IMG/VR virus record: IMGVR_UViG_3300046522_000608
Location: 1-26,926 of that record
Reading direction: 5' to 3' (one strand)
Length of the DNA stretch: 26,926 bases
Source: a virus
Shown one piece after another: positions 2,273 through 23,945 of this stretch (its first letter is position 1; every line of letters begins with the position of its first letter). A model generated the notes under the pieces. It was given only the letters and a program-made list of their open reading frames with translations. It did not search any database and had not been told where the DNA came from. The position numbers and the translations under genes are program-made.

Positions 2273-2447
2273 CTATGCCCCAGCTAGACCAGTCGAGGGC
2301 AGTCTACCTTGCGGGGGCCAGATTCAATTGAACCACTAATACTAGACCAAATTTAAAAGACTACTTATAATAGACTCATTGATCGGCATTCATCGGTGTT
2401 GATTGCCATAGATAAACCAAGGCAGAAATTCCATGAAAGGAACTCCC

Positions 2448-3065
2448 ATGTTTATCCGCGCATACCTTCGGGCATCGACTAAAGAACAAGACGCCAGCCG
2501 CGCCAAGAGCCAGCTGGAAAACTTCGCTGCGGAACGTGGGTTGAAAATCGCCGCCTTCTACATAGAGAACGAGAGCGGGGCATCGTTGGAGCGTCCGGCC
2601 TTGTTCGAATTGATTGCTGACGCATCGATCGGCGACATTCTTCTGATCGAGCAGGTCGACCGCCTATCTCGTCTGAACGAGGTCGACTGGACCAAGCTGA
2701 AGCAGTCGCTCAACGAGAAGCACATCAAGGTTGTTGCTTTAGATCTCCCGACCTCCTGGATGATGACGTCGACGGACGAGACGACTGCACGCATGTTCGA
2801 CGCCATCAACAACATGATGCTCGACATGCTGGCCGCGATCGCGCGGAAAGACTATGTGACCCGCCGGCAGCGCGCCGCCCAGGGCGTCGAGAAGGCCAAG
2901 GCAGCCGGCAAATACAAAGGGCGCCCCGAAGACACCGAACGCAACACGCTGATCCAGAAGCACCTGAAGGCTGGCGTGTCGAGCTGGCAAGAAATCATGG
3001 AATTGGTGGGTTGCAGCCGCGGGACGGTTGCCAAGCAAGCCGCCTTGCTGCGAACCGCGAGTTGA
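2448..3065 (+). CDS. Serine recombinase (resolvase/invertase family)
   Basis: A 205-residue site-specific serine recombinase. The N-terminal catalytic domain starts MFIRAYLRASTKEQDASRAK, with the nucleophile at Ser10. The conserved EQVDRLSRLN block is near residues 65-74. The long central helix is around residues 115-150. A C-terminal helix-turn-helix (SSWQEIMELVGCSRGTVAKQ) would bind the recombination site. All key residues appear intact. The ATG at 2448 follows AAAGGAA by six bases. An upstream in-frame ATG at 2433 would overlap that site. An intrinsic terminator follows at once. It may resolve multimers of the circle or be a passenger. No obvious pair of crossover sites was found nearby. 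Confidence 0.9.
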   Translation: MFIRAYLRASTKEQDASRAKSQLENFAAERGLKIAAFYIENESGASLERPALFELIADASIGDILLIEQVDRLSRLNEVDWTKLKQSLNEKHIKVVALDLPTSWMMTSTDETTARMFDAINNMMLDMLAAIARKDYVTRRQRAAQGVEKAKAAGKYKGRPEDTERNTLIQKHLKAGVSSWQEIMELVGCSRGTVAKQAALLRTAS

Positions 3066-3088
3066 GGCGGTAAATCTCGCAGCATGAC

Positions 3089-3115
3089 AAGCCGGCCCTG
3101 CCCCGGCTTTTCTAT
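3089..3115 (+). terminator. Intrinsic terminator after the serine recombinase
   Basis: AAGCCGG (3089-3095) pairs with CCGGCTT (3103-3109) around a seven-base loop and is followed by a T-rich tract. It lies 24 bp after the recombinase stop codon. Confidence 0.85.
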
Positions 3116-3125
3116 TTTTCTCTCC

Positions 3126-3333
3126 CTCGACTATGTTGCTGGTAGAGCGTACGCAATCACGCCTGCCTAGGGCGAAGGCTGAGGGTAAGACGCTGAGTCG
3201 CCCATCTAAGACAAACGACGAGCAGCGGCGCCAGATTGTGGCCGACTATGCGGCCGGTCACAGCGTGAGCGAGCTGGCCCGCCGCTTCACCGTCTCGCGC
3301 GCCAATATCCTCGGCATTGTTAAGCCTATTTGA
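3126..3333 (+). pseudogene. C-terminal remnant of a second serine recombinase
   Basis: The reading LLVERTQSRLPRAKAEGK, then RPSKTNDEQRRQIVADYAAG and SVSELARRFTVSRANILGIVK, is the C-terminal end of a Hin/Tn3-type invertase or resolvase: end of the long helix, linker and helix-turn-helix. The N-terminal catalytic domain with its serine is absent, and homology begins just after the terminator of the neighbouring recombinase. No ribosome binding site precedes the ATG at 3133, so it is probably not translated. It differs clearly from the C-terminus of the intact neighbour, so it derives from a different recombinase. Its end overlaps the end of the convergent zinc-ribbon gene by eight bases. Confidence 0.75.
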
Positions 3334-4344: not shown

Positions 4345-4590
4345 CTATGGATAGCTGCTGGTATCCCCTTCTACCCAATGATAATAGGCCTGTAAGTTCA
4401 TCGTGATGCGCCCGTCCGGCGCCTTGCGGAAGTGCCGACCCTGAAGCCAAACGCCGTCCTCGATCTTCCTGCGCACTGCCTTGTCGGTATAGCCGGTCAA
4501 CTGGCAAAACAGGGGGAGCAGCATCCACTTGAGCTGGATTGATAGTACCGACACGGTCTCTCTTGGATCGTCTGGTTTTGCTCTGTGCAT
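4345..4590 (-). CDS. Putative excisionase (DUF1233-like)
   Basis: An 81-residue protein. Its core FCQLTGYTDKAVRRKIEDGV, followed by LQGRHFRKAPDGRITMNLQAY and ending HWVEG, is the pattern of phage putative excisionases (DUF1233): a small winged-helix domain that bends attachment-site DNA and biases the integrase toward excision. The ATG at 4590 is selected because GGAGG stands five bases before it. An in-frame ATG at 4617 lacks a ribosome binding site. It lies about 13 kb from the integrase on the linear map, which is unusual. Upstream are direct repeats GTGCGTACC that look like arm sites of a different integrase, so it may belong to a lost module. Confidence 0.7.
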   Translation of the reverse strand: MHRAKPDDPRETVSVLSIQLKWMLLPLFCQLTGYTDKAVRRKIEDGVWLQGRHFRKAPDGRITMNLQAYYHWVEGDTSSYP

Positions 4591-4706
4591 CCTGCCTCCG
4601 GTGTTGCTCTTGAACATAGCCGCACCATAACATTTGATAACAAGTGCTCAGCCATTTCTATCCCTATCTACTTTAGATATGGACCTGAGCATTTCTTAGC
4701 ATTTTC

Positions 4707-4971: not shown

Positions 4972-5388
4972 ATGTTCGCTGTGCGTTGCCTCGTCTTACT
5001 GCTCTTGACCTACTACGCTTGGGGTATGGGCCATCTCCCGGCCGGAGAACTTAATGCGTTCGGCCGCTTCGTTTCCCTCGCCTTCTTCCCTCTCTTCCTG
5101 CTGCTGTACATGCTTCCGACCTACGAAGCATGGAAGAACGAGCATCCGAATCTGGCGGCGATCGCCTTGGTCGACCTGTTCCTGGGCTGGACTGTTTTAG
5201 GCTGGGTTGTCGCGATCGTCTGGGCGTTCAGGAAGCCCGAGCCTGTCGCAATTTCATTACGGCATGCAGAAGGTGCTACGCCCGCGCCCCAGCCAACACG
5301 CCAAACGAAGACGTGTGCATTCTGTGCCGAGGAGATCCTGGCTGCAGCTATTAAGTGCAAGCATTGCGGTAGCGACGTCCGTGCTTAA
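4972..5388 (+). CDS. Superinfection-immunity membrane protein with C-terminal zinc ribbon
   Basis: A 138-residue protein. The hydrophobic segments lie near residues 4-18, 32-50 and 62-86. LLYMLPTYEAW, then FLGWTVLGWVVAIVWAF, is the signature of the superinfection immunity family related to T4 Imm, which acts in the inner membrane to hinder DNA entry of incoming phage. A zinc ribbon follows, with Cys115, Cys118, Cys129 and Cys132 (CAFCAEEILAAAIKCKHCGS). A strong ribosome binding site (AGGAGAGAG) stands just before the ATG. It heads a rightward pair with the HTH gene that begins 41 bp later. For a phage-linked element this would be a self-protective or helper-protective function. The role is inferred from the family. 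Confidence 0.8.
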   Translation: MFAVRCLVLLLLTYYAWGMGHLPAGELNAFGRFVSLAFFPLFLLLYMLPTYEAWKNEHPNLAAIALVDLFLGWTVLGWVVAIVWAFRKPEPVAISLRHAEGATPAPQPTRQTKTCAFCAEEILAAAIKCKHCGSDVRA

Positions 5389-5429: not shown

Positions 5430-5705
5430 ATGTCCAATTTGAACAGACAGCAGATCTGCGCTGCTCTAGGAGTGAGCGAGTCCACTATCCGACGTCTGGA
5501 GCAGAGTGGGCTACCATATACTCCCGTCGGCCGACGAGCGAAGCGGTACGACTTAGAAGAATGCAAGACTTGGCTGAGGGGGAACTACCCGTATCAGCCC
5601 CAAAAGACGGAAAACAAGGCCGTAAGCACATCGGCATTATGGTCAGCTGCAAAAGAGTTCACAGAATCTTGCCGAAAGGTGCAGTTACGGGTAAAGCCAA
5701 GCTGA
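5430..5705 (+). CDS. Small helix-turn-helix phage protein
   Basis: A 91-residue DNA-binding protein. LNRQQICAALGVSESTIRRLEQSGLPYTPVG, followed by KRYDLEECKTWL (residues 3-50), forms the MerR/Nu1-like winged helix-turn-helix common in phage regulators, excisionases and small terminase subunits. The tail ending in CRKVQLRVKPS recurs in phage proteins as I recall them. GAGAGG precedes the start. It lies 41 bp after the superinfection-immunity gene and converges on the tape measure gene. It is not called a terminase subunit because no large subunit exists in the window. Confidence 0.7.
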   Translation: MSNLNRQQICAALGVSESTIRRLEQSGLPYTPVGRRAKRYDLEECKTWLRGNYPYQPQKTENKAVSTSALWSAAKEFTESCRKVQLRVKPS

Positions 5706-5807: not shown

Positions 5808-8800
5808 TCAGCCGTTCCTGCTCAGGGACCGCTGTATGTGACGCCCAGCATCCGCGCCCCATTGCGCCGCACTCGCCCTCGAGGCGCCGGCTGGCGGAGT
5901 CACATTCACGTTGACGATGGTTGGCTGAGTTCGCCGATCGGCGCCGCCCCCCTTTGGCTCGACCGTCCCGCCCTGCGAACCCATCATCAAATACTGCTTG
6001 CCGGCGACCTCCAGCAGCTCAGGCTGATCCCTGCCCTTTTCGTTGACGCGATACATGCCGCCAGCCGAGACAGGGCCACCAAGCTCACGGGCGCCCCGTA
6101 CCTTGACTGCGCTCGCAACTGCCGACTCGGACTCATCCTTGACACCGAGACGATCGAGCAGGCCTCCGAGCAAATTCGCCGACGATTCGCCTTCGACTTT
6201 GCTGCCGGCGATTGATTGCAGCAGCGTCGAGACGGTGGAGCGTGTTTCGACGGTCTTCGCCGCCTTGGAAAACGGCGACTTTTCTGCCTTGGACTCGGCC
6301 AGGATGCGGGCGACGATGCTCATGCCCAGGTTGTCGCGGTGGCGCGGGTCGGCAGCGTGCAGCACTTCCTCGCGCCTGCCCTTCGGCCCACCCATCAGGA
6401 TTGCTGGCACCTCGTTGTGCTTGAGCTTCTCGCCCGCCTTGTCTGCCGCTTTGCCGACGATGCCGCCAGTGTGATAGCGCGGCGCGCCAGCAAACATGCT
6501 CATCGAGACATTGCGGGTAGCCGGAGGTTGCCCGACAATGCCGCCGCTGTGGAAGATGCCCGTCGCCGCTACCGCAGCCTCGTAGGCGCCCGCCTCTCCT
6601 CCGCCTCCAAACAAGCTGGCGATGGCACCGAACAGTCCGCCACCACTACCGCTCGTTGCACTGCTGGTCTGCATCGCCATCACCGCCGACTGGAACAGGC
6701 CCACGATGCCGGGTAGGCGTACCATCGCGTCGCCGCCTAAATGGGCCGCGTTCGCCATCTTCAATACATCGGAGGCGGTGGTGGTCGCTTGGGTGCTAAA
6801 CAGGGAAAGTGACTTGGTTGCGTCTCCCTGTACTCCTGCCAGTTCTGCATCAACCGGTGGCGGCTGGGTTGGGTCATAGCTGGACGCCAGACCGTCCAGA
6901 CTTGCACGCTCCCCACTGACCTCGCCGGCCGACTTGCTTGGAGCCCCTAGCAGTGGCTTGTTAAGTGCGTTCGCTGCATTCTCGGCTGCGACCCTGAAGG
7001 CATCTACGGCACTGATCGACGCTTCAATCGCCGCGGTCTGCTGCAGCAATGCAGCCTGCTTCGGATCGGCCTTGATACCCAGCGCATCCTTGAAGACACC
7101 TGCGAGAGCGCCATCGCCTTCGGTCAGCTTCGTGAGCTTGTCCTTGAAGTAGGCCTGCAGAGGGTCCTGGATCAGGACTTTGCTGATACTGGCAGAAACC
7201 TGCTGCGCCGCCGGTTCGAGCACGGTCTTGCTGAAGGCGTTGAGAGCGGTCTTGCCCTTCGATTCGACCTTCAGGCCGTCGCTTTCCCCTTGCAGCTGGT
7301 TGATCCGCTTTTGCAGACTTGCCTTGTTGCGAACGTCCTTCTCCTCAGCCAGGTAGCCGCGGAGCTGGTCGATGCGGCGGGAATACTCGTCCTTTTGGGA
7401 TTTGATATCGCGCTCCGACTCGCTGCGGCGCTGGCTGTAATACTCGACAAAGGCGTTCGGGGCATTGCTTACGGTCTGCGCGAGTCCCGCGGCCAACTCG
7501 CGGTTGGCGTCGCGCAGCCGCTGCAAGGCTGGATCAATCGCCTTTGCCGCTTTAGCGTAGCTCAAGGCCAGGTCGGCAGCGAAGGCTTTGAGCGCTGGGT
7601 TCTGCGAGGCTTCGGCCAGTTCCTTTGCCTTCGCCGCCAAGGCGCCAAGCTGCCCCAACTCCTGCGAGCGTAGCTGGTAGAGGCCCTGCTCGGTCTCGGT
7701 CAGCGACTTGCCGGACTGCTCGGCCGCATCAAGGTAAGCCTCTTCGGCGCGCGCGCTGTTGCTGGTCAGGAGCGAGGTTTGACGCTGTACCTCGTTGAAC
7801 TGGTTCAGTATCTCGGTGCGGCGAGTCAGCTGGCTGATTTCTTCGTCCGTGATCTGTCCGGCCGGCAGTTTGGCAGATTGCGCCGCAAGCACCTTGGCGC
7901 TTTCGATCGCCAACTGAGAGCGTACCGTTGCGGCGCCGGCCTCGTCACCTTCCATCTGCAAGAGATTGGCGCGGTAGTTGGCGACCTGCTCGGACAAGGC
8001 TTTGAAGCTGGCTGTCCGCTCCTCGTTAAGGAGAACGATATCGCGAGACTTCTTCGTCTCTACCTCTTCACGCTTGACGCCGATCTCGGTGATACGGGTC
8101 TGGGTCTGGACACGCTCGGACGGGTCTTTCGTCTGCTTCAGGTGCTCCTGCAGGCGTGCACTTTCCTTGTCCAGCTCCGTGATCTGCGCATTCGCCACGT
8201 TTTCGATGACCTCGCGGCGCTGGTCCATGAGCGTGCTCAGCGAGATGGTGCCGTTCCGGTATGCCGTTTCGACAAAGGCGTTCTGGAACTGGTAGGTATC
8301 ACGCTCCTTCTCGAAGACATCCTGAATGCCCTTCAGGTCATTCTGTAGCTGGGCGCGCAGGACTTGGGCGGCCTCACTGTTCTTCGGCGGCGTAAATTCC
8401 TTCTTGAGCTCGGCAAATGCGGTCTTTTGATCGGATGCGCTTACCGGCGTACCAGCGGCCGCCCTGTCCTTGAAGCTGCGGTTCAACTCATCGAGCTTTT
8501 CCTTGTAGAGCGATGCCGCCTTGCCCCTCCTCAGGTAACCGTCGATGACGCTCTTGGCCGTGATGCCCGCCTGCTGAGCCTCTGCATCGGCCGCCTTGTT
8601 GAAGGCATTCGCCTCAGTTACGGCTTGGCCGGCCAGCGCATCCTGGAGCTGGTACTCAAGACTGTGAGTGTCGTTGCCCGCCAGCTGCGCGGTACGGCTC
8701 TGCGGCGCCGGCGCGAATGGGTTGCTGCGGTTGCGCGACTCTCGGATTTTGGCGTCCAGGTTGGCGATCTTGCTCTCGATCGTTTCAGTCCGGCCGATAT

Positions 8801-11144
8801 CGTAGGCGGCATCCCAGAAGTTAGACCAGGCACTCTTCGCCGACCGCAAGGTGCGCTCGATGGTACCGAGGTTCGGGTCGAGCTGGTGCAGGCGATCAAT
8901 CAAGGCGGTGATAACGACACCTTGCGCCTTCGCCGCATCGCCCGCCTTCTCGAAGTCCTCAGCGAGATCGATCTGCTTCGCCGTAATGAAATTCAGCGTG
9001 CGGTTATGTTCCTCGGCCCACTTCGAGGGCGAGCGCGCCATGTTGGCGAAGTCCTTGATGACTTCATCTGCCGCCCTGTCTGTCGCCTGCGCATACAGTG
9101 CGATCGCTTCGGTGGCCTGAGCGAATACCTGTGGGCCGATCTGGCCTGAGCCGAGCGCGGCTTGTGCCGCCTCCCGCGCGGCGCTGGCCGTAACCTGACC
9201 ATGAGAAGCAATCTCCCGGGTAAGCGAGTTGATCTTGCCCTCAGTCTGGCCGGCGTAATTACCTGTCAGGACTACAGCGTCAGCGAAGCCTTTACTCTGA
9301 CGTGACCCTTCGTAGTAGGCCATCGCTAGTGCGCCGACTGCGGTAGCGGCGCCACCAATCGCCACGCGCGCCGGAGTGATGGCACTCAGTACAGCCCGGA
9401 ACGCACCTCCGGCCCCGCCGAAGGTGCCGGATAATTGCGAGCCCTGTTGGATGAAGGCGGTCAGCGGCGACTGACCCGATGCGACTTGGACAAAGAAGTC
9501 GTTGAGTTGGAACGACAGCTGCTGTTGTTGATGGGCGGTCAGGGTCGATTGACGGCCGAGTGAGTTGAGGGCAGTCCGGTGGCGGTCCGCTGCATCTGCG
9601 GCGCTCCGCTGCGACCGTGCGGCGGCGGCACTGGCGGTCGACACTGCTGCCTGGGCAGACTGCATTCGCGTCTGAGCTGCTGCGATGGCCTCGGTACTGC
9701 TCGAGGAAGACCGGGATGCGTTGTCGAAGGCTGTTTGGGCCGCTGCTGCCCGTGCCGTCGCTACTGCCAGTCGGGCCTGCGCCGCTTCATTCCGCGCATT
9801 GGCTTCTGCCAGGCGCAGCCCGGCTTCGGCGGCGCGGCCCTCTGCTGCGGTAAAGGCGTTCGTGGCCGTTGTACCGTGTGCCGTGGCTGCGGCAAAGGCA
9901 CTCATGCCCGACGGGTTCGGAGCATTCGCGATCACTTCCGAAACACTTGTGCTCGCAGGCGCCTGCCGAGCCACGATCTGTGACATGACGGGCTGTTGCG
10001 CCGGCGCTGGGATGCTCGCACGGCTCAGGTCGGCAATGGAGCGGCGTGCGTTCTGCGCCTGGGCAGCGACATTTGCCAGAGCAGCAGCGGTCGCGGAGAT
10101 GCCCTGCGGCGCGTCCATGCGGATCGGCGTCGCGGCAATCTGGCGATACGACCCAGCAGCCGCAGCAGCAGCGGGCGCGAGTTCAGCCAATGCGCTACGC
10201 TGTGCACGGGCGGCAGCGGTCAGGCGCTCGACGGTGGTTTGAGCGCGCCCAGCATCGACTGCCAGTTGCGCAGTCTGCGAGCCGGTAGCCGTAGGAACGC
10301 GCTGGCCCGTTGCTGCGCTGACGATGGGTTGAGCCACGAGCGGCGCCCGGGTTGCCGGCGCGGCCGAGGTTGCGAGCACGGTAGTGCGAGGCGTCGCAGC
10401 GATGGCGCGGTTCGCTTCGGTGACGGTCGTAGCAACGCGAGTGGCCTGCGTCGCGGTCGCCGACATGGCTTGCGCCACTTCTCGCATCGCGTTCGGGCTG
10501 GCCTGCGGCGCGGCGGTCAATGTTGCTGCGGCGGCCGACGGTGCTCGCGTGCTGGCAGGTGCGGCAGGTGCCGCGGTTGGCTGACGGTACGTCCTGGCGG
10601 TGCTCTCGGCAACCTGCGTCAGTTGTGCGAATGCGCCGCGGCTGGCATTAACCGCCTCTGTCTGACGCTCGATCGCCAGGCGTGCGCCGACTGCTGCGCT
10701 GGCCAGTTGACCAAGGTTGGCGGTGCCGGCAGGGCTGATGGTGAGGGCGCTCGATGCGGTAGTTATCGTTGGCCGATCAGCTTGCACAGTACGCGGGATG
10801 ACTGGGTCGTTCGAAACCCGCGCATTTGTGAGAACGTCGCGGATCGAATTGCCAGCAGTTTCCCGGCGGGTTCGCATCGCGGCCAGCATTTGCCCGACCT
10901 GGCGGGTTGCATCCTGCCCCAGTGCGTTCTGCGCTTCTTCAAGGGTGCGGGTGCGATTGATACCGTTGGTTAGAGCTGGGACCAGCGTTTGGGCGATCGT
11001 GCGACCCTCCGCAATGGAAGCAGCCGTGACTCGGCCGGCAGAAGTGGCAGCTGCATTGCCGGCATTGACCATTCGGTCGAAAGCGGCGGCAGCGGTTCCC
11101 ACTTGGGAGCTGTCGACGGCTAGTGTGAGAATTGTCCTATCCAT
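5808..11144 (-). CDS. Phage tail tape measure protein
   Basis: An intact 1778-residue tape measure protein of the lambda-like long-tail type. Residues 1-520 are an Ala/Thr-rich, coiled-coil-prone stretch of low complexity. Around residues 535-800 comes the prophage tail length tape measure block (QLSFQLNDFFVQVASGQSP, then a hydrophobic segment near 590-612, then GYY/YEGSRQSKGFADAVVLTGNY-like sequence). Long helices follow to about residue 1450. The Gly-rich C-terminus carries HSGGIVG and RELGGPVSAGGMYRVNEKG, as in many siphophage tape measures. In tails this protein fixes tube length and enters the cell with the DNA. The start at 11144 has AAGG eight bases upstream. No tube, chaperone, tip, capsid or terminase gene accompanies it. 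Only alpA, 49 bp upstream, is co-directional. With no frameshift over 5.3 kb, it is under selection or recently acquired. Confidence 0.93.
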   Translation of the reverse strand: MDRTILTLAVDSSQVGTAAAAFDRMVNAGNAAATSAGRVTAASIAEGRTIAQTLVPALTNGINRTRTLEEAQNALGQDATRQVGQMLAAMRTRRETAGNSIRDVLTNARVSNDPVIPRTVQADRPTITTASSALTISPAGTANLGQLASAAVGARLAIERQTEAVNASRGAFAQLTQVAESTARTYRQPTAAPAAPASTRAPSAAAATLTAAPQASPNAMREVAQAMSATATQATRVATTVTEANRAIAATPRTTVLATSAAPATRAPLVAQPIVSAATGQRVPTATGSQTAQLAVDAGRAQTTVERLTAAARAQRSALAELAPAAAAAAGSYRQIAATPIRMDAPQGISATAAALANVAAQAQNARRSIADLSRASIPAPAQQPVMSQIVARQAPASTSVSEVIANAPNPSGMSAFAAATAHGTTATNAFTAAEGRAAEAGLRLAEANARNEAAQARLAVATARAAAAQTAFDNASRSSSSSTEAIAAAQTRMQSAQAAVSTASAAAARSQRSAADAADRHRTALNSLGRQSTLTAHQQQQLSFQLNDFFVQVASGQSPLTAFIQQGSQLSGTFGGAGGAFRAVLSAITPARVAIGGAATAVGALAMAYYEGSRQSKGFADAVVLTGNYAGQTEGKINSLTREIASHGQVTASAAREAAQAALGSGQIGPQVFAQATEAIALYAQATDRAADEVIKDFANMARSPSKWAEEHNRTLNFITAKQIDLAEDFEKAGDAAKAQGVVITALIDRLHQLDPNLGTIERTLRSAKSAWSNFWDAAYDIGRTETIESKIANLDAKIRESRNRSNPFAPAPQSRTAQLAGNDTHSLEYQLQDALAGQAVTEANAFNKAADAEAQQAGITAKSVIDGYLRRGKAASLYKEKLDELNRSFKDRAAAGTPVSASDQKTAFAELKKEFTPPKNSEAAQVLRAQLQNDLKGIQDVFEKERDTYQFQNAFVETAYRNGTISLSTLMDQRREVIENVANAQITELDKESARLQEHLKQTKDPSERVQTQTRITEIGVKREEVETKKSRDIVLLNEERTASFKALSEQVANYRANLLQMEGDEAGAATVRSQLAIESAKVLAAQSAKLPAGQITDEEISQLTRRTEILNQFNEVQRQTSLLTSNSARAEEAYLDAAEQSGKSLTETEQGLYQLRSQELGQLGALAAKAKELAEASQNPALKAFAADLALSYAKAAKAIDPALQRLRDANRELAAGLAQTVSNAPNAFVEYYSQRRSESERDIKSQKDEYSRRIDQLRGYLAEEKDVRNKASLQKRINQLQGESDGLKVESKGKTALNAFSKTVLEPAAQQVSASISKVLIQDPLQAYFKDKLTKLTEGDGALAGVFKDALGIKADPKQAALLQQTAAIEASISAVDAFRVAAENAANALNKPLLGAPSKSAGEVSGERASLDGLASSYDPTQPPPVDAELAGVQGDATKSLSLFSTQATTTASDVLKMANAAHLGGDAMVRLPGIVGLFQSAVMAMQTSSATSGSGGGLFGAIASLFGGGGEAGAYEAAVAATGIFHSGGIVGQPPATRNVSMSMFAGAPRYHTGGIVGKAADKAGEKLKHNEVPAILMGGPKGRREEVLHAADPRHRDNLGMSIVARILAESKAEKSPFSKAAKTVETRSTVSTLLQSIAGSKVEGESSANLLGGLLDRLGVKDESESAVASAVKVRGARELGGPVSAGGMYRVNEKGRDQPELLEVAGKQYLMMGSQGGTVEPKGGGADRRTQPTIVNVNVTPPAGASRASAAQWGADAGRHIQRSLSRNG

Positions 11145-11193: not shown

Positions 11194-11400
11194 TCAGGCC
11201 ATCGCTTCTTCGGCCACCTCGGCGTTACGCTCTTCGACCCGCGCAAGCAGCCAGGCATCTACTTCTGCCTCTACCCAGCCGACGTGGCGATCGCCAAGAC
11301 GTACAGCTGGCGGGAATTTGCTCGATCGCATGTAGTTGTAAATCGTGGTGCGGCCGAGAGTGGTTTTCTCGGTAACGCGCTCGATAGGGATGATGTTCAT
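11194..11400 (-). CDS. alpA: AlpA family transcriptional regulator
   Basis: A 68-residue AlpA-type regulator: IERVTEKTTLGRTTIYNYMRS, then FPPAVRLGDRHVGWVEAEVDAWL, the standard MerR-like winged helix. In CP4-57 and P4-like elements such proteins switch on excision or satellite operons. GGGAGTAGG lies directly before the ATG. The tape measure gene begins 49 bp after the stop codon on the same strand, so the two are probably cotranscribed. Two strong terminators lie immediately upstream and separate this pair from the replication operon. Confidence 0.88.
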   Translation of the reverse strand: MNIIPIERVTEKTTLGRTTIYNYMRSSKFPPAVRLGDRHVGWVEAEVDAWLLARVEERNAEVAEEAMA

Positions 11401-11690: not shown

Positions 11691-12074
11691 CTAGCTACAT
11701 TCAATCTCTTGCGCTTTCGCGATCAGTTGAGCGAGCTCCCAGGCGCGGCGCGCGAAGGCTCGCGACCGGTTGTAGTAGGTAGGGCGACTGATGCCCAGCT
11801 TGTTGGCCTGCCGCTTGATATGGTCGGCTTCCTCGACATACATCAGGCGGAAACACACCATCTCATCAGCGTATTGCGGCTCCTCACACAGGGCATAGAG
11901 TGCCTTGTTGAAGTGCTGCATGAAGGCGATATTCTTGCCGTCCGGTTCTTTGCCGCACCGGCTCGGGTGCAGGCGAGCAAGCAGACCTTGCGATCCACCT
12001 CTCACGTAGAAGCGGCGGGTGAAGCACCAAGTAGCCCACTGCCGGCACAACTCGTCAAGTTGATGGGTATCCAT
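11691..12074 (-). CDS. Putative phage late-gene or antitermination-type regulator
   Basis: A 127-residue protein. The C-terminal part (DHIKRQANKLGISRPTYYNRSRAFARRAWELA, residues 84-115) is a helix-turn-helix like those of sigma region 4 or phage Q/ArpU-type late regulators. The N-terminal part (LCRQWATWCFTRRFY) is typical of phage proteins at the end of a replication block. AGGGATAGGG precedes the ATG. It is the last gene of the leftward replication operon, five bases after the 76-residue gene. It is followed by two terminators and then alpA and the tape measure gene, the place where a Q-like protein would act. The assignment rests on motif and position only. Confidence 0.5.
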   Translation of the reverse strand: MDTHQLDELCRQWATWCFTRRFYVRGGSQGLLARLHPSRCGKEPDGKNIAFMQHFNKALYALCEEPQYADEMVCFRLMYVEEADHIKRQANKLGISRPTYYNRSRAFARRAWELAQLIAKAQEIECS

Positions 12075-12078
12075 GGCC

Positions 12079-12309
12079 CTATCCCTGGTCGATGTTGTTC
12101 GCGATGTTTCTGCAATACCGTAGGAACTCCTTCAGCTGTCCCATCTGCTCCCTGATCTCGTTGGTGCAGGCGCCGTGCACCAGGGCGTTCTGGCTACTGC
12201 GCATTTTTCCGGCCTCGGTTTGCGGTCCGGTCGATTTTTCCCACGGTTTCCAATTGCGGATCAGTTCCGATTGCCGCGCCCGCCGCTCCGCTGTCCATCC
12301 GTTCGCCAT
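12079..12309 (-). CDS. Conserved phage hypothetical protein, overlapping its upstream neighbour
   Basis: A 76-residue protein. The reading GWTAERRARQSELIRNWKPW, then STGPQTEAGKMRSSQNALVHG, is a pattern I associate with small proteins of betaproteobacterial prophages. The function is unknown and it is basic in composition. It has a strong ribosome binding site (GGAGG, six bases before ATG) inside the 3' part of the preceding gene, with which it shares 116 bp in another frame. The good start and the known-looking sequence make both frames credible. Confidence 0.7.
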   Translation of the reverse strand: MANGWTAERRARQSELIRNWKPWEKSTGPQTEAGKMRSSQNALVHGACTNEIREQMGQLKEFLRYCRNIANNIDQG

Positions 12310-12907
12310 GGTGTACCTCCAATAGTTCGTTCGATTGGTTTTCAGTTTTTGTCTCGTGCGCGTGTAGAGGGCTAGCGCCGTTGACGGTCGGGCCGTTGTT
12401 GACCTGCTGCTGTTCGGCGATGTTCGCTTGCTTGATAAAGGTGGCCGACCGCGGAGACTTGATCTCCGCCAGCGTCTCCAGCGTCGTACGGCACTGGCTC
12501 TGCGCCTTCAAGGCCATGCGGAGATACTTTTCCGCCACGTCGGTGTAAGAGCCGACGTTGCTACCAGCGCGCTGCGCCAAGGTGTTGAAGATCACATCCA
12601 GCGTGTTCGCCTGGTTGATCAGGATGCTTTCTGCCCGCCCCATGCTGCCGGCCTTCACATCCTTTTCATGCTGGCCAAGCTCTTGGGCGAGCGACGTGAA
12701 TTTGTGATCGTTCAGCGCCTTGTCAAAAATGAGCATCGTCGTTGCCGCACGGACGACTGGATGCAGGCGAACTCTTGCCAGCGTTAAGTCGTGATCCTCG
12801 CCCGGCACCTGTTCGACAGAAAGGTGCTTCGTCTCGTCCGTATCCTTGGCATCATTCGGGCTGCTTGCCACCACATGACTCTTCCTGCTCTTGTCGATCA
12901 GCTTCAT
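12194..12907 (-). CDS. Conserved phage hypothetical protein (replication region)
   Basis: A 237-residue soluble protein rich in helices. LARVRLHPVVRAATTMLIFDK and the block SMGRAESILINQANTLDVIFNTLAQRAG (around residues 92-120), then LRMALKAQSQCRTTLETLAE, look like a helical phage protein often found beside the 76-residue protein that overlaps its end. The charged C-terminal tail (HHGERMDSGAAG, then ETVGKIDRTANRG) is probably disordered and is where the overlap lies. Its start overlaps the primase stop codon by four bases, indicating translational coupling. No enzymatic motif was seen. Confidence 0.65.
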   Translation of the reverse strand: MKLIDKSRKSHVVASSPNDAKDTDETKHLSVEQVPGEDHDLTLARVRLHPVVRAATTMLIFDKALNDHKFTSLAQELGQHEKDVKAGSMGRAESILINQANTLDVIFNTLAQRAGSNVGSYTDVAEKYLRMALKAQSQCRTTLETLAEIKSPRSATFIKQANIAEQQQVNNGPTVNGASPLHAHETKTENQSNELLEVHHGERMDSGAAGAAIGTDPQLETVGKIDRTANRGRKNAQ

Positions 12908-13848
12908 GGTGTTACTCCGATTAAATTGGTGGTATCGGCCCAGTCCGTCCCTACCTCGGGCGGGATCTGGATCTCGACCGCATACCCATCACGCACCAGG
13001 CGCCGGGCTAGGACATGGGCTGCGGCCTGCCCGGTGAAGCTGGAGTCGTTGTCTGCGGCGATGAGTACGCGCTTCACCCCGGCAGGCGGTACCCATGCTT
13101 CGAGAAGGACGGCATTGGCAGCGGCCCAGACAGGGACGCCGAAGCGAATAGAGGCCGCTAGGGCTGTTTCGATACCCTCGGATATACCGAGTGTCGGCTC
13201 GACCCTTGAAAGCCTCACAGCGGCCGTATTTAGCGGCTTCCCGGCCATAATCTTTTTGGGCTGAGGTACTGGCGCCTTGTCGCCGCCTTCGGTCAGGTAG
13301 GTGCGGTGGATCGATGCGCCGGTGCCGTTCGGGTACTGGAGCTTGCCGACCATCGCCGGGAAGCGGCCCAGGTCGCGGCCGTCCTCGTCGGTGTACCTGA
13401 GCCCAGGATGCAGGCGGAGCCCCGCCGGCACCTGCTCGATGCCGAGGCGCCGGTTCAGGTACAGCCACACTGGATCACCGCGCACCACCTCCCGGCTGTC
13501 GTTCCACACCTGGTGCAGCGCGCGGACCTTGCTGGCGTCGGTGCGCTCCGGCACGATCGGCCCGGGTGGCACTGTCCCCACGATGCGGTCGACCTGCTTG
13601 GCCGCTTCACTGAACGACCACCCCAACACGCCCTGCAGCAGCTTGAAGCCATCGCCCGATCCACAGTGTGAGCAAATCCAGGTACCGCGCCCGCCCTTGT
13701 CATCGAAGCGATATCGATTAGTCCCGGCGCAGATAGGGCAAGGGCCGTGCTTCTTTCGTAGGTAGGCCGGATCAACGCCCAGTTGCTGCAAGATGCCGGG
13801 CCAGCGTCCGACCGCCTCATCAGCCGTTTTGGACCTAAGCGCTTGCAT
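12904..13848 (-). CDS. DNA primase (P4-type zinc finger plus Toprim domain)
   Basis: A 314-residue primase-like protein. The zinc finger has Cys37, Cys40, Cys59 and Cys62 (CPICAGTNRYRF and WICSHCGSGDG), as in P4 alpha and related primases, and recognises template DNA. The Toprim domain shows the acidic motifs SEGIETA (residues 223-229) and AADND (264-268), which bind metal for primer synthesis. There is no helicase domain, and an SF2 helicase is encoded just upstream with a 14-bp overlap. It would prime replication of the element from its own origin. All expected key residues are present. Confidence 0.9.
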   Translation of the reverse strand: MQALRSKTADEAVGRWPGILQQLGVDPAYLRKKHGPCPICAGTNRYRFDDKGGRGTWICSHCGSGDGFKLLQGVLGWSFSEAAKQVDRIVGTVPPGPIVPERTDASKVRALHQVWNDSREVVRGDPVWLYLNRRLGIEQVPAGLRLHPGLRYTDEDGRDLGRFPAMVGKLQYPNGTGASIHRTYLTEGGDKAPVPQPKKIMAGKPLNTAAVRLSRVEPTLGISEGIETALAASIRFGVPVWAAANAVLLEAWVPPAGVKRVLIAADNDSSFTGQAAAHVLARRLVRDGYAVEIQIPPEVGTDWADTTNLIGVTP

Positions 13849-15505
13849 GGCTTGCCTCCAATGCTTTCGCAGCCCGGATCTGCAGATGTTTCAGGAACCC
13901 GAGCACCTCCTTGCCTGGCGGCGCCGCGATCTGATTCAGCCCACGCGGCCAGACTCCATATTTCGCCTGGTACTTGTGCGATACCCATCCCGACTTGTAA
14001 CCCTTCTCCTGCGCCATGCCCAGCAGCTGGGAATAGAACCTCTGCTTTTCAGTCTTCGATGCTTTAGGCTTCTTCCGGTCGAGGAGCACCAGGTTGCCGT
14101 CCTTGACGTCGACGTCGGCCTTGCGCTCCGGTGCAAAGCCACATTGCGGGCATTTGTGGACGTTTGTGAGCTTGACGTAGCTGCAGGACGGGCAGGCCTT
14201 CGGCAGCGACTCTTCCCGCTCCTGCGCTTCCCCGCCCTTCCCCTCCCTAGGTTTGCCGTCGTCGAGCTCGAGGGGAAACTCTTCCGTTGGAAACCCCAGG
14301 CGGGTCACCGTGCCCGAGTGGTCGAGGATCAGCGCGCGCTCCTTGCTCGCGTGCGGACGAAGCACCCGCCCTGCCATCTGGATGTAGCGGATCAGAGAGC
14401 GAGTCGGGCGCGCGAGGATCAGGGTGCGGCACGCTGGGAAGTCCCACCCCTCTGCGAGGATGCCGACATTGGAGATCACCATCGTTTCCCCGCTCTCGAC
14501 ACGGGCCAGGATCGCGCGGCGCTCCTCCTCCTCGGTGTAGCAGTCGATATGCTCCGCTGCGATGCCGGCGGCCTGGAAGCGCTCGACGATGTGCTTGCTG
14601 TGGGCGATGTTTGCCGCGAAGCAGACCGTCGGCGTGCCGCGCGCCAAGCGCAGCCAGTGCGTTACGATGTCGCCGACCAGCTCCGGCTTGTTAGCGGCGC
14701 GCCCCACATCGGCATCGGTGTAGTCCATATCCCCGAACGCATTGCGTGCCTGCTTGATGCCGGTCATATCCGGCTCGCTCGGGGCGTAGACGTCGCAGTC
14801 GACCAGGTAACCTCCCTCGATCAGCTCCGGGATCGTCGCCGCCACCGTCATGTGTTCGAACAGTGGGCCGCCGAGCTCGTCGTAGTGCTTGCCCAGCCCC
14901 TTAGCGTACGGTGTAGCCGACAGGCCGATCACCGGCACGCCCTTGGCCGCCGCGATGACTGCCCGGTATTCCCTAGAGCCGGCAACGGTATGCGCCTCGT
15001 CGATGAGGATCAGGTCGACCTCAGGCAGGCCGCGACGCGCCACGGTCTGAATGCTGGCCACCAGCACATTCTCGTAGAGCCTGGCAGTGTTCGCCCCCTG
15101 GATGATCCCGTGCGAGATGTCGGCCCTTCTGAAGCGTCGCGAAGTCTGCTCGACCAGATGCACGCGGTTGCAGAGGAAGATCACCCGCTTATGTTTCGCT
15201 CGGGCGCCGCGGACCAAGGCCATGCCGATCTCGGTCTTACCACTACCGGTCGGGCTGCAGAGCATTTCCCGAACAATCCCCCCAGCCAAGGCGCGGCGGA
15301 GGTTTTGAACGGCGATTGATTGGTACGGTCGGAGGGTCAGAGCGCCTGAAACCGGTTCGCCTTGGCTGGGCGGGTTTGGGGTTTTAAAGCTATGGCTATG
15401 GCTATGGCTATGGGTACGTGCACGACTGGAGCACGCTTCGTGCTCGTTTGGTGCTACCACCTGTGCCACGCTTCGTGCTTCAGAGGTGCTGGGATTGAAC
15501 ATCAT
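13835..15505 (-). CDS. SF2 DEAD/DEAH-type helicase
   Basis: A 556-residue helicase. Walker A is SPTGSGKTEIG (Lys90), motif II is LILIDEAHTV, motif III is GLSATPYA, and motif VI is YIQMAGRVLRP. A C-terminal zinc ribbon follows (CPSCSYVKLTNVHKCPQCG). The family unwinds duplex DNA or remodels nucleic acid. With the downstream primase it forms the likely replication pair. The start ATGATG has GGAGG six bases upstream and overlaps the DUF1376 stop codon. The first 50 residues before TLRPYQ are an unusual extension with HSHSHSHS (residues 32-39), encoded by a hexanucleotide repeat. It may be a lineage-specific insertion. Confidence 0.92.
   Translation of the reverse strand: MMFNPSTSEARSVAQVVAPNEHEACSSRARTHSHSHSHSFKTPNPPSQGEPVSGALTLRPYQSIAVQNLRRALAGGIVREMLCSPTGSGKTEIGMALVRGARAKHKRVIFLCNRVHLVEQTSRRFRRADISHGIIQGANTARLYENVLVASIQTVARRGLPEVDLILIDEAHTVAGSREYRAVIAAAKGVPVIGLSATPYAKGLGKHYDELGGPLFEHMTVAATIPELIEGGYLVDCDVYAPSEPDMTGIKQARNAFGDMDYTDADVGRAANKPELVGDIVTHWLRLARGTPTVCFAANIAHSKHIVERFQAAGIAAEHIDCYTEEEERRAILARVESGETMVISNVGILAEGWDFPACRTLILARPTRSLIRYIQMAGRVLRPHASKERALILDHSGTVTRLGFPTEEFPLELDDGKPREGKGGEAQEREESLPKACPSCSYVKLTNVHKCPQCGFAPERKADVDVKDGNLVLLDRKKPKASKTEKQRFYSQLLGMAQEKGYKSGWVSHKYQAKYGVWPRGLNQIAAPPGKEVLGFLKHLQIRAAKALEASHASA
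15389..15412 (+). repeat. Hexanucleotide microsatellite (GCTATG)4
   Basis: Four perfect GCTATG units lie in the helicase gene and encode alternating His and Ser on the minus strand. Gain or loss of units would keep the reading frame. Confidence 0.85.
15432..15479 (+). repeat. Pair of 13-bp direct repeats with internal dyad
   Basis: CACGCTTCGTGCT occurs at 15432-15444 and 15467-15479. The core GCACG-CTT-CGTGC at the first copy can form a hairpin. Both copies lie in the helicase N-terminal extension, close to the GCTATG repeat. Confidence 0.7.
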
Positions 15506-15948
15506 GAGCGACCTCCAGAGACCAGCTGCAGCCGCTTCTTGTTCTCCCGATCGATGGCGATCTGCTTGTTCTTCTCGGCGATGATCCTGGCCTTGACGAT
15601 CTCGCCCAAGGCGCGCACGTTGATCAGTCCCCCGACCTCTGTCCAGTCGGCGACAACAGTCCGGAGCGGGCGGCGCTCATTCTCCGACTGGAGGCCCAGC
15701 AGCTCATAGAGCGGCTCGATTTCGGGCGGCAGCGGGCGCCAAAACTGTACGCAGATGGAGTCGACGGCGCGGCGCTCGACCTCGGTCTCGGCGCGGATGA
15801 GCCGGTAGAGGGCCTTCCGGTTCGCTGGCAGCGGCCTGCCGGCGCCGTAATAGTGGTCCAGCATGAGCCTATAAGCGCCGTGCTCGATCACCGACAAATG
15901 CCCCGTAGCGCGAGCGTAGTCGCCGACGAAGTGCTTATAGAAATTCAT
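15502..15948 (-). CDS. DUF1376 (YdaU-like) phage replication-region protein
   Basis: A 148-residue protein. FYKHFVGDYARATGHLSVIEHGAYRLMLDHYY at the N-terminus is the hallmark of the DUF1376/YdaU family, which occurs next to replication genes in many prophages and is thought to take part in initiation or helicase loading. The C-terminal region is short and basic. Start and stop overlap the neighbouring genes by four bases each (ATGA), so translation is coupled along the operon. Confidence 0.85.
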   Translation of the reverse strand: MNFYKHFVGDYARATGHLSVIEHGAYRLMLDHYYGAGRPLPANRKALYRLIRAETEVERRAVDSICVQFWRPLPPEIEPLYELLGLQSENERRPLRTVVADWTEVGGLINVRALGEIVKARIIAEKNKQIAIDRENKKRLQLVSGGRS

Positions 15949-16388
15949 GCCGCCCCCAGGTCGAGTTGCCCCTGAGGCTGTGCCGGCGGCTGATTTTTGC
16001 GCCCGCCGAAGAAATAGCGTGCTACGCCCTGATGGAAGAGACCATCGGGCCCGATAACGTTTTCACGCAGGGAGATGATCTCGTACTGGTCTTCCAGATC
16101 CTTTACCCGGGTTGCAGCGCGTAAGTAGCCGAGAGCTACGAGCTCATAGGTGTTGGCGCCGCGTGAGCCCAGGTACTCCAGAACCTTCGGTAAGGTGGCA
16201 AGCTGCGTATCTCCTGAGGTGCTGCGCAGCTGTAGGCCAGCCCACTGTATCTCGTTAACGACGTATCTGATATGCTCTGCATCGCAGTTGTACGTCTTCT
16301 TTTGCTTAGTCGTTGGGGCCTGGCCGCCACCACCGACATGTGAGGCGCCACCCTTTGGGGTGGCGTTTTTCACTTTTCGATCAGCCAT
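15945..16388 (-). CDS. Phage hypothetical protein in the replication operon
   Basis: A 147-residue protein whose family I do not recognise. The N-terminus is basic and flexible (KVKNATPKGGASHVGGGG). The middle (EIQWAGLQLRSTSGDTQLATLPKVLEYLGSRG) and the stretch ANTYELVALGYLRAATRVKDL look like a compact helical domain. The ATG at 16388 is chosen because GGAGG lies five bases upstream. A GTG two codons earlier is closer to that site. It overlaps the preceding HTH gene by eight bases and the DUF1376 gene by four. Confidence 0.65.
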   Translation of the reverse strand: MADRKVKNATPKGGASHVGGGGQAPTTKQKKTYNCDAEHIRYVVNEIQWAGLQLRSTSGDTQLATLPKVLEYLGSRGANTYELVALGYLRAATRVKDLEDQYEIISLRENVIGPDGLFHQGVARYFFGGRKNQPPAQPQGQLDLGAA

Positions 16389-16596
16389 TTGCACCTCCGT
16401 TCAGGAGGCGTTTGATGTCGGCGATTGACCAGGCAAGATACCTGTTGATGCGAATGGGGCGTAGCGGTCCGGTCTCGCTACTTGCCCAAACACGGAGTGT
16501 TTGCGGGCTGCGATTGAGGTGATAGGCCGCGCACTCTGTGTTCACATGGGTGCGCGTTTCCTGGTCGAGCGGAGGAAAAGCCGTAGCAGTTTGCAT
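16381..16596 (-). CDS. Small HTH regulator, paralogue A
   Basis: A 71-residue DNA-binding protein. PPLDQETRTHVNTECAAYHL, then RSPQTLRVWASSETGPLRPIRINRYLAWSIADIKRLL, forms an AlpA/excisionase-like winged helix. Two further copies of this unusual family exist in the window (21575-21808 and 22137-22379), with the shared blocks RTHV, QTxRVWAS, GPxRPxRIN and IxRLL. It opens the cluster leading into the replication genes. A 9-bp inverted repeat lies immediately upstream of the ATG, at the place of an autoregulatory operator. AAAGGA is about ten bases from the start. Confidence 0.8.
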   Translation of the reverse strand: MQTATAFPPLDQETRTHVNTECAAYHLNRSPQTLRVWASSETGPLRPIRINRYLAWSIADIKRLLNGGANG

Positions 16597-17708: not shown

Positions 17709-17795
17709 TTCAAGTGCGCCTTCATGAATAAGGGCGCCAGTCAGGCCGGTGAAGGAGCCGGCTTTTCGTCCGCTAAAACTAGACTGGCGCTTGAA
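17709..17795. repeat. Nested inverted repeats between integrase and its neighbour
   Basis: GCGCCAGT (17734-17741) pairs with ACTGGCGC (17783-17790), enclosing GCCGG (17745-17749) with CCGGC (17758-17762). The flanks TTCAAGTGCGCC and GGCGCTTGAA add an outer imperfect pairing. The region could fold into a long stem that ends or attenuates transcription from the integrase gene. Confidence 0.5.
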
Positions 17796-17804
17796 CGGTA
17801 ATCC

Positions 17805-19124
17805 CTATGCTTGGGCCACGACTCGTAGTCCAGGTGGCGCTGCAATAAACTCGATGTCGGCCTGCTCAAGCATCCATGCCTCGATCTTCATGTGCCAGAG
17901 TCGCAGAAGGTCCAGCGGTCTCCGTATGTAGTTCTGCTCCCGAACGCCTTGTGGAGCGTGACCCTGAATCTGTGCCGCAATGCCAGCAGGCATTTCGACC
18001 CATTCGCTCAGTGTGGCAAACGAGCGGCGCAAACCATGCAGAGTAAGGTGAGGCAATCCCGCAACCTTGAGCGCTTCATTGTGCGCATACCGCGGCTCGG
18101 CGACGCGGCCGTCAGCAGAAGCGGTACTCGAAAACACCCATTCGTTACGGCGGGGTAGTTGCGCCAGCAGGTGGCTGACATAGGGCGTCAAGGGGACCAT
18201 ACGGAAGTCCTCAATTTTGTCATTCAACTTCATCCTGCCCCACTGGAAGTCGACATCCGCCCATCGAAGTTGTGCGAGTTCCTCCCGACGTGGCCCAACA
18301 AGTAGCAGGCACTGCAGGTAAGCACTGATGACAGGGTTGCCTAGCTGGCGCACCGCGCTGAACCAAGGCGCCAACATCTCGCGCTGCAGAACGTCGTGTC
18401 GCCTCTTGGGCTTACCCAACGTCTCGCGAGTCCTAGTGCTTTTCGTTGGATTGGCAGCAATGATGCTCGAGTAAACTGGATGCGCAGTGCACCAGTTCAT
18501 GCAAGCTTTGAGAAGGCGCCAAGCCAGCCTTGCACTACTTGGTCGGCTTTTCGCCTCTTCCTTCGCCCAGGTTTCAACGCGATCGCTCGTGAGGTCGACC
18601 AATCGAACGCCGGCCAAAGAGTAGAGTGCTCCTGACTGCGTCACCTTGGAACCACGCTTATGCGGCTCTCCTCCCGCTTGCATCATCTGATGATGAGAAC
18701 GGAGATGAAGATCAGACCATCCACCCTCTCTTGTCGCGATCCGGTCAGCAATATATTCCGGCCACACGTCCGCTAGAGTAATCGATTCCCGTAGCTGTTT
18801 GGCCTGTTCCTCGGCAGTCGCAGCCGCCTTTGCCGCTAGCTGGTCGGCCTTGAGTTTTCGCGGATCTTGGCCACTGTCGACGAGCACTTTCAGCCGGCGG
18901 GCCTCCGTTTGGGCTGCCGGGATATCCCATGAACGGGGATCACCGATCGTGATACGGATCGTCTGCTGATTCAGCTTTGTCTGGAAGATGTACGACTTAG
19001 CGCCGCTAGCGGTTACGCGAAGGCCCAAGCCAGGCGAGCCCGTATCCCACAGGAAGGATTGGGGCTTGCCGACCTCACATTTGAAGTCTTCTATCCTGCC
19101 TGCTGTGAACTTAACCTTTGCCAT
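17805..19124 (-). CDS. int: Tyrosine integrase
   Basis: A 439-residue integrase of the P4 type. The N-terminal arm-binding domain (DUF4102-like) has LWDTGSPGLGLRVTASGAKSY at residues 25-45. A core-binding domain lies near 115-215. The catalytic domain has Arg279 (GPRREEL), Lys303, His363-x-x-Arg366 (HGLRRSF), His389 and nucleophile Tyr399. All active residues are present. The ATG at 19124 has GGAG six bases upstream. Earlier in-frame starts lack one. It recombines attP with the tRNA-Thr gene. The site lies 170 bp upstream of its start, and arm-type repeats flank it. The putative Xis at 4345-4590 is far away, while AlpA-like genes are nearer. Confidence 0.95.
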   Translation of the reverse strand: MAKVKFTAGRIEDFKCEVGKPQSFLWDTGSPGLGLRVTASGAKSYIFQTKLNQQTIRITIGDPRSWDIPAAQTEARRLKVLVDSGQDPRKLKADQLAAKAAATAEEQAKQLRESITLADVWPEYIADRIATREGGWSDLHLRSHHQMMQAGGEPHKRGSKVTQSGALYSLAGVRLVDLTSDRVETWAKEEAKSRPSSARLAWRLLKACMNWCTAHPVYSSIIAANPTKSTRTRETLGKPKRRHDVLQREMLAPWFSAVRQLGNPVISAYLQCLLLVGPRREELAQLRWADVDFQWGRMKLNDKIEDFRMVPLTPYVSHLLAQLPRRNEWVFSSTASADGRVAEPRYAHNEALKVAGLPHLTLHGLRRSFATLSEWVEMPAGIAAQIQGHAPQGVREQNYIRRPLDLLRLWHMKIEAWMLEQADIEFIAAPPGLRVVAQA

Positions 19125-19145
19125 TTGAGTCTCCATAGTCGCGTC

Positions 19146-19165
19146 ATGTAACCGCCATGTAACCC
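19146..19165 (+). repeat. Integrase arm-type sites, left pair
   Basis: ATGTAACC (19146-19153) and ATGTAACCC (19157-19165) are direct repeats 11 bp apart, between the integrase start and the attP core. The same pair with the same spacing and orientation recurs at 19399 and 19410. Confidence 0.7.
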
Positions 19166-19294
19166 AAATAGTAGCATACCGATCTACGCCGATGTATGTC
19201 AACTCAGCCGACTATATGCATTAAGCACATGATTTGAAACGAATTTCTCTATGAACGATATGCCAATCAACACATCGGAATATCAAAGACCTAG

Positions 19295-19341
19295 GATTTG
19301 TAATCATCAGGTGGCGGGTTCGAGTCCTGCAGCCGGCACCA
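19295..19341 (+). other. attP: attP core: 3' half of tRNA-Thr (UGU)
   Basis: From GATTTGTAATC (anticodon loop with TGT) to GCCGGCACCA the sequence is the 3' half of tRNA-Thr. It has the 3' anticodon stem TCATC, the T arm GCGGG-TTCGAGT-CCTGC, the acceptor strand AGCCGGC and an encoded CCA. The 5' half is missing: no GCCGGCT lies upstream, and TAGGA before the loop cannot pair with TCATC. This is how an element that integrates in the anticodon region carries a replacement 3' end. The core is flanked on both sides by arm repeats, as in attP. Confidence 0.88.
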
Positions 19342-20798: not shown

Positions 20799-20800
20799 TT

Positions 20801-21574: not shown

Positions 21575-21808
21575 TCATGAGGCTTTAAGTAAGCGGCGTA
21601 TCTCTTCCACCGGCCAGCTCAGCCTTCCATTGATCCTCACTGGCCGGATCGGTCCCTGCTCTGTTGACGCCCACACCCGCATCGTTTGCGGCCGCCGGCC
21701 CAAGTGATGTGCCGCACTTGCCGTGTCCACGTGTGTGCGCTGCTCAAGGTCGAGTGGTACGAACTCTAGTCCCATAGAGCCGCAGCCTTTCCGCTTAGAG
21801 TCGTTCAT
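21575..21808 (-). CDS. Small HTH regulator, paralogue B
   Basis: A 77-residue protein. VPLDLEQRTHVDTASAAHHL, then RRPQTMRVWASTEQGPIRPVRIN and WPVEEIRRLL, is almost identical to paralogue C (22137-22379) and related to A (16381-16596). The ATG at 21808 is taken with weak GGAA upstream. The ATG at 21775 is an alternative. It is the last gene of the leftward series. The region before it has a perfect 10-bp inverted repeat (21821-21861) and the iteron-like cluster, so it may bind there as a repressor or replication factor. Confidence 0.78.
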   Translation of the reverse strand: MNDSKRKGCGSMGLEFVPLDLEQRTHVDTASAAHHLGRRPQTMRVWASTEQGPIRPVRINGRLSWPVEEIRRLLKAS

Positions 21809-21820
21809 GGTTCCAACCTT

Positions 21821-23793: not shown

Positions 23794-23844
23794 GTGAGCC
23801 TCCTTTGTCGGTGTTTAAACCGCTGCCCGTCGCCAAACGGGGGG

Positions 23845-23922
23845 GAGCGGCAAATGGTGAGGTTGGCGAACCGGTGACAAAGGAAACCGGCATACCCGAA
23901 GGTATCCCCACCACCGCCGCTC
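23845..23922 (-). ncRNA. C4/CI-like antisense RNA
   Basis: The segment folds as a cloverleaf of 78 nt, close to the size of the P1 C4 RNA. The outer stem is GAGCGGC (23845-23851) with GCCGCTC (23916-23922). A second stem is GGTGAGG (23856-23862) with CCCCACC (23906-23912). The inner hairpins are ATACC/GGTAT (23892-23905), CCGG/CCGG (23871-23890) and GGTT/AACC. On the minus strand the loop TCCTTTGTC (23884-23876) is complementary to the Shine-Dalgarno region GACAAAGGA (23809-23801) of the next gene, and eight of its bases to GACAAAGG (23982-23975) upstream. That A-B-C order matches the P4 immunity leader. Confidence 0.72.
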
Positions 23923-23945
23923 ATAGGAGACGCAGTGGACGGACG

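Follow-up and report, generated by a model that had tools for sequence, protein, structure and literature searches.

Why would a mobile element carry an intact phage tape measure gene when it appears to hold no other gene for a virion? The question is raised by an IMG/VR contig of 26,926 bases (the window, meaning the whole stretch of DNA analysed here), for which a sequence-only reading had claimed a circular form, an intact tape measure protein (TMP) of 1778 residues, and the lack of any capsid, terminase, tube, chaperone or tip gene in the circle. These claims were borne out, the last of them for the main ORFs. Both ends of the record bear the 7-base repeat CCGTCTT, and merging the two copies joins a GIY-YIG ORF (MDIKQNRCVTVYGLASSEDGELRYIGQT...) over the joint. 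Upstream of the integrase gene (int) a tRNA-Thr gene is represented by its 3′ half alone, and such a lone 3′ half beside int matches what is expected for the attP of an excised circle. The joint-crossing ORF and attP thus make it well supported that the record represents a closed circle of 26.9 kb. The features to which we refer are as follows, the G and L numbers being our handles for the records and loci compared:

2433..3333, plus strand: resolvase (2433-3065) and resolvase C-terminal fragment (3133-3333), with counterparts where the far end lies in relatives; the fragment matches L061, L085 and L067 at 84-91%
4345..4617, minus strand: excisionase-like protein (phrog_539, E 7.5e-11)
4972..5388, plus strand: superinfection-immunity (Imm-type) protein (PF14373, E 4e-16; phrog_1039, E 9e-15)
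5430..5705, plus strand: conserved 91-aa HTH protein, at the cassette's far end (59-60% in G006 and L129; also in L056), with excisionase-type and weak small-terminase (TerS)-type matches
5808..11144, minus strand: full-length tape measure protein (TMP_2), 1778 aa
11194..11400, minus strand: AlpA-type regulator directly upstream of the TMP gene (Phage_AlpA, E 2.5e-17; 63% to AlpA of the plasmid satellite G004)
11691..12074, minus strand: 127-aa protein, judged by eye to resemble HTH late-gene regulators, with no Pfam or PHROG match
12194..12907, minus strand: 237-aa helical protein whose homologues adjoin virion cassettes of other satellites
12904..13848, minus strand: primase with Zn ribbon and Toprim (Pfam/PHROG)
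13835..15505, minus strand: DEAD-type helicase (Pfam/PHROG; 70-84% in relatives)
15502..15948, minus strand: DUF1376 replication protein (Pfam)
15945..16394, minus strand: 149-aa conserved satellite protein (44-64% in most relatives)
16381..16596, minus strand: AlpA-like HTH protein, with homologues at the equivalent place in relatives
17719..17789, minus strand: int-alpA RNA (Rfam RF02996, E 3.4e-11)
17805..19202, minus strand: tyrosine integrase (Pfam; 81% to the L023 integrase)
19295..19341: attP core, the 3′ half of tRNA-Thr
23840..23927, minus strand: C4 antisense RNA (Rfam RF01695, E 8.7e-12)

Apart from the TMP gene, the main ORFs of the window comprise integration, regulation, replication, immunity-like and uncharacterised genes. 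No family of capsid, portal, large terminase (TerL), tube, chaperone or tip matched these ORFs in Pfam, PHROG or with a TerL profile. A portal profile likewise had no match in the window, a weak test given that this profile recovered one of seven phage-type control records. No TerS could be recognised in the main ORFs apart from the sole packaging hint of the window, the 91-aa HTH protein at 5430-5705, whose weak small-terminase-type match (E 2e-7) is inferior to its excisionase-type match (E 6e-9). Four AlpA-like genes were seen in the circle (11194-11400, 16381-16596, 21575-21832 and 22137-22529), three of them alike and the one at 11194-11400 of another type. A terminator-like hairpin at 11563-11545, ahead of alpA (11194-11400), suggests that alpA and the TMP gene form a separate unit, the scan total of such hairpins being no higher than in shuffled sequence. 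C4-type antisense RNAs occur in P4, P1 and P7, and the C4 RNA together with the int-alpA RNA hints at antisense-RNA control of the element. The Imm-type gene lies close to the TMP gene as a possible exclusion partner and is at most suggestive of a link between entry and exclusion. An FRG-domain protein at 1070-2272 matched the candidate defence family PDC-S15 (E 7e-49), and beside attP, at 19776-21448, an IrrE/M78-like protein and a 215-aa protein in overlapping style resemble a toxin-antitoxin or defence pair.

The ORF at 5808-11144 starts with ATG and has no internal stop. Residues 528-726 of its product matched Pfam TMP_2 (PF06791, E 3.9e-50) with 170.9 bits against a curated cut-off of 30.2, residues 294-1064 matched the PHROG tape measure family phrog_24 (E 2e-71), and the matches of residues 1364-1759 to the C-terminal tape-measure profiles phrog_2335 and phrog_1538 indicate that the protein is full length; PF20155, another TMP family, had no match in the window. 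Its nearest relatives, at 63-71% amino acid identity, are tape measures in siphophage-type contigs, where complete copies of 1765 and 1788 aa lie within 1% of its length, while matches in cultured phages and plasmids were partial and all below 60%. In the phage locus L004, read by eye, neck-, tube- and chaperone-like genes come before the tape measure gene, and after it lie DUF2460-, DUF2163- and NlpC/P60-like genes and one for a large tip protein; the downstream order in L001, also read by eye, is the same. The dN/dS of the TMP was 0.13-0.22 between the window and the related phages and 0.17-0.22 among the phages themselves, giving no sign of relaxed constraint: purifying selection acts on the TMP of the window. 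Apart from the TMP gene, the window had no DNA in common with the compared loci of phages L001-L006, and hence no packaging-site link to them.

To find relatives we searched viral contigs and 84,980 bacterial genomes with the helicase and the primase as queries. The sequence-only reading had proposed looking for the layout of the element in other genomes, and indeed chromosomes and circular plasmids of Oxalobacteraceae, the close relatives among named genomes, carry the int-alpA-helicase-primase backbone at approximately 70-85% identity. Common to the relatives are AlpA, the 149-aa protein, DUF1376 or a similar protein, the helicase and the primase, with a resolvase and small HTH genes at the far end. 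Three are end-redundant circles: G004 of Herbaspirillum sp. SJZ107 (95-bp repeat, ParA), G006 (127-bp repeat, ParA-like protein, Mob_Pre relaxase with E 1e-34) and L065 of Noviherbaspirillum aridicola (1508-bp repeat, plasmid genes). Among the chromosomal ones, L067 is flanked by 51-bp repeats in tRNA-Phe that lie 16.3 kb apart, and L079 and L129 adjoin tmRNA. A genus-level search gave no new satellites and a family-level search added one (G322/L129). In the SJZ107 genome the TMP_2 match of the satellite is the only one, so that no resident TMP_2 prophage in the sequence examined serves as the satellite's helper.

In most relatives the slot downstream of the primase holds a small virion cassette, consisting either of another TMP or of P22-type ejection proteins (gp7, gp20 and gp16), often with a TerS. 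The cargo of each element was:

Window: TMP of 1778 aa
G004: scaffold-like protein, Neck1 (E 6e-47) and TMP of 1785 aa
L064: TMP of 619 aa and TerS
L062 and G006: gp7-, gp20- and gp16-like proteins and TerS
L085 and L023: gp7 along with gp20-like and gp16-like proteins, the gp16-like one bearing a transglycosylase domain
L022: two ejection-like proteins and TerS (E 9e-57)
L061, L063, L066, L087 and L129: two or three ejection-like proteins each
L049: gp7
L065 and L067: one internal-type protein each
L068: TerS only
L079: none seen

The profile matches for the L062 and G006 cargo (PF25688, phrog_598, phrog_770 and an Sf6-type TerS) were obtained with L062, and several ejection-type proteins that have no PHROG match were assigned by homology between elements and by gene order. 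For example, the 722-aa protein of L087 is homologous to an ejection protein of L138, and the 517-aa protein of L063 to the gp20-like protein of L062. The L062 gp16 has matches among proteins of Sf101 and other P22-like phages. The search for TerL was negative in all 14 element records, a weak match in G417/G418 falling within their helicase gene. Between satellites of the L061/L062/G006 group the dN/dS of gp16 was 0.10-0.16, and this gene, too, is under purifying selection. The TMPs of the window, G004, L064 and G418 are mutually unlike or distant, the best match being 32% over 503 aa (G004-G418). The helicase tree places the window and G004 as sisters (99/94) inside a group that otherwise carries ejection cassettes or none, and this nesting argues that the cargo types were exchanged on one backbone. 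The scaffold-like and Neck1 proteins beside the TMP of G004 (L024:9172-10280) raise the possibility that G004 also alters its helper's capsid.

The sequence-only reading had named two refuting findings: close relatives that keep the remaining head and tail genes, which would mark the element as a deleted prophage, and a decayed copy of the gene in relatives. What the relatives hold are small cassettes without shell genes, and what acts on the genes is purifying selection. That the element is a prophage remnant which kept its TMP by chance could appeal to the podovirus-type contigs G008 and G010, in which a related helicase and primase are also found; it has to account for 1778 intact codons at a dN/dS of 0.13, for an equivalent slot that many elements fill with cargo of differing kind but like function, and for the lack of shell genes in three end-redundant circular plasmids and one att-bounded island. 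We regard a remnant as highly improbable and reject a deleted prophage on family-wide conservation and the TMP dN/dS.

Another idea is that the TMP gives satellite particles tails of another length than those of the helper. Tail length is set by tape measures, and the tails of the Vibrio cholerae PLE satellites are 10 nm shorter (PMC12987554). However, 1778 aa compared with 1765 and 1788 aa would give about equal length if the helper is of that phage type, and the ejection proteins in the equivalent slot of relatives set no length. A length role, one of several raised when only the sequence had been read, is therefore not the best guess, and we consider it very unlikely.

Similar cargo is found on unrelated backbones. 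G417/G418 encode AlpA, two chaperone-like proteins and a TMP of 931 aa (TAC-TAC-TMP), together with a homologue of the 237-aa protein, and L138, L140, L143, L145 and their kin, on other backbones again, have ejection cassettes followed by such a homologue. Two Escherichia coli islands, L165:1161-18264 and L168:1456-19676, located at two different tRNA sites (tRNA-Ser and tRNA-Thr), carry int, an AlpA-like regulator, a Toprim/DUF927 primase, DUF2824, gp7, gp20 and gp16 (E to 1e-165), with no shell genes found in either. At least 80% of their primase-to-gp16 segment was present at one place in 177 of 5,426 complete E. coli genomes. Members of the 237-aa protein family (window 12194-12907, L063:19316-19984, L154:6468-7193, L138:7758-8468) adjoin virion cassettes in many satellites and also occur in some other integrative elements, and none matched among 50,697 phage records; judged by this distribution, the family is a possible satellite marker gene. 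The 237-aa protein was considered as a small terminase and rejected, as two AlphaFold models were of low confidence (mean pLDDT 59 and 54), no PDB fold matched significantly and no phage homologue was found.

Taken together, we propose, with a probability of roughly 0.6, that the circle is a PICI-like satellite that uses the shell and tail of a helper and supplies its own DNA-ejected protein, giving chimeric tails. The circle would have arisen by excision of an integrative, PICI-like satellite that belongs to the Oxalobacteraceae group. Judging by their families, the AlpA-type regulators and the integrase would free this satellite from its site in a tRNA-Thr gene, and replication would fall to the primase-helicase module; a helper siphophage of the L001/L004 type would provide capsid, portal, large terminase, tail tube, chaperones and tip, and the satellite TMP would replace the helper's in the tail. 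A siphophage tape measure fills the tail, exits with the DNA and aids envelope crossing, and tape measures of lambda/T5 type share with the P22-type gp7, gp20 and gp16 this exit from the virion with DNA and the help into the cell. The satellite would thus control the entry of its own DNA, with the helper in charge of shell and receptor binding, and relatives suited to short-tailed helpers would bring the ejected gp7, gp20 and gp16 instead. In favour of the satellite reading are the intact TMP without shell genes, the circle and attP, the recurrence of the backbone with a different TMP in G004 and with a TMP and TerS in L064, the P22-type cassettes in the equivalent slot of most relatives, the TAC-TAC-TMP array of unrelated G417/G418, the islands of E. 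coli with ejection cassettes only, the selection on the TMP and on gp16, and two experimental precedents, the PLE TMP in chimeric tails and EcCIMP1, an AlpA island moved by the phage Kapi1. We counted against it that no TAC stands beside the TMP of the window, unlike in PLE and G418, so that this TMP must use the helper's chaperones; that the window has neither a recognisable TerS nor a packaging site common with L001-L006; that L079 has no cassette and L068 only a TerS; that 27 kb is above typical PICI size; and that several ejection-type assignments have no profile match. The placement of the TMP in the slot of the relatives' virion cassettes was itself read as speaking against chimeric assembly.

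The sequence-only reading held that supplying only the length ruler is not an established satellite strategy. Its satellite idea is supported by relatives and selection; the novelty of the strategy did not hold, since Vibrio cholerae PLE satellites build chimeric tails with their own TMP, as reported in March 2026 (PMC12987554). The PLE TMP replaces the helper's in the tails, deletion of tmp reduces transfer by 96-99.9%, and putative tmp genes occur also in PLE-like elements and some cf-PICIs (PMC12987554, Extended Data Fig. 10). From PLE11 comes the further explanation that a chimeric tail serves to escape tail-assembly inhibition, the helper TMP being blocked by Rta and the satellite TMP being resistant (PMC12987554). 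Yet PLE tmp deletions harm transfer even without the inhibitor Rta (PMC12987554), podovirus-type relatives bring ejection proteins that lie outside any long-tail assembly path, and no Rta-like gene is known in the window, Rta being not recognisable by family; we find this explanation unlikely. Alternatively, the TMP could be a weapon that disrupts helper assembly or DNA entry, protects the host and is absent from satellite particles, as the Imm-type gene and the FRG-domain gene of a candidate defence family might suggest. Complete multi-gene ejection cassettes with TerS, pointing to particle building, and full-length conservation in excess of the needs of a decoy make a weapon quite improbable.

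The likeness to PLE lies in a tape measure encoded by the satellite, less than a full tail, with the remainder, for the window presumably, from the helper. PLE has a lytic contractile-tailed helper and chaperone (in some cases hub) genes, with TAC next to TMP, whereas the window has a lambda-type TMP alone, no chaperone match in Pfam or PHROG, and otherwise different genes; G417/G418, with their two chaperone-like genes, stand closer to PLE than the window does. With its integrase, AlpA-type regulator, primase/replication module and att site, the window has the gene content expected of a PICI, a class defined also by induction through a phage and packaging into its particles. Many but not all PICIs have their own TerS or a cos/pac site resembling the helper's; TerS is found in relatives L062, L064, L022 and L068, with only the weak HTH match in the window. 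Gram-negative PICIs share int, AlpA, primase, a chromosomal att, a cassette after the primase and, in some, TerS; the window differs from them in its larger size (27 kb), other replication genes and TMP cargo, and some of its relatives in being plasmids with ParA and Rep-like genes. EcCIMP1, a functional AlpA island moved by the P22-like Lederbergvirus Kapi1, has DNA-transfer-like and DUF2824 genes after its primase, the cassette position of this satellite type, and for these its own authors proposed a role in packaging (PMC6092414, PMC11773190). cf-PICIs borrow tails, and some have putative tmp genes, but they bring their own capsid and packaging proteins, and the window lacks the capsid, portal and terminase that define them. 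P4-like satellites and PICMIs also have int, AlpA and primase, and the window has a C4-type antisense RNA; however, no sid, psu, delta or alpha-type family was among the Pfam and PHROG matches of its main ORFs, and PICMIs, with about six genes in Vibrionaceae at a site beside fis, differ from about 27 kb at tRNA-Thr.

What is new here is a family unrelated to PLE, with a siphophage TMP and no chaperone, of which we found no description in the literature searched. Nor did that literature, which left most subscription journals and preprints outside, describe ejected-protein cargo across TMP-type and podovirus-type satellites. A general rule, to which we give even odds, may be that across unrelated lineages particle-borrowing satellites supply the virion proteins that are ejected with DNA (TMP for long-tailed helpers, gp7/gp20/gp16 for P22-like ones), so that the satellite controls DNA entry. 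Satellites are usually sorted by capsid theft or remaking and by packaging redirection; the beta- and gammaproteobacterial elements described here have almost no shell genes, yet intact ejection-path proteins. The question of ejected proteins is open to gene deletion in E. coli, and it offers a possible function for the unexplained post-primase genes of functional islands such as EcCIMP1. If the ejection-path proteins are used in particles, this would bear on the need of PLE for a tape measure without the inhibitor, and satellites would choose their own route across the envelope, with consequences for host range and superinfection exclusion.
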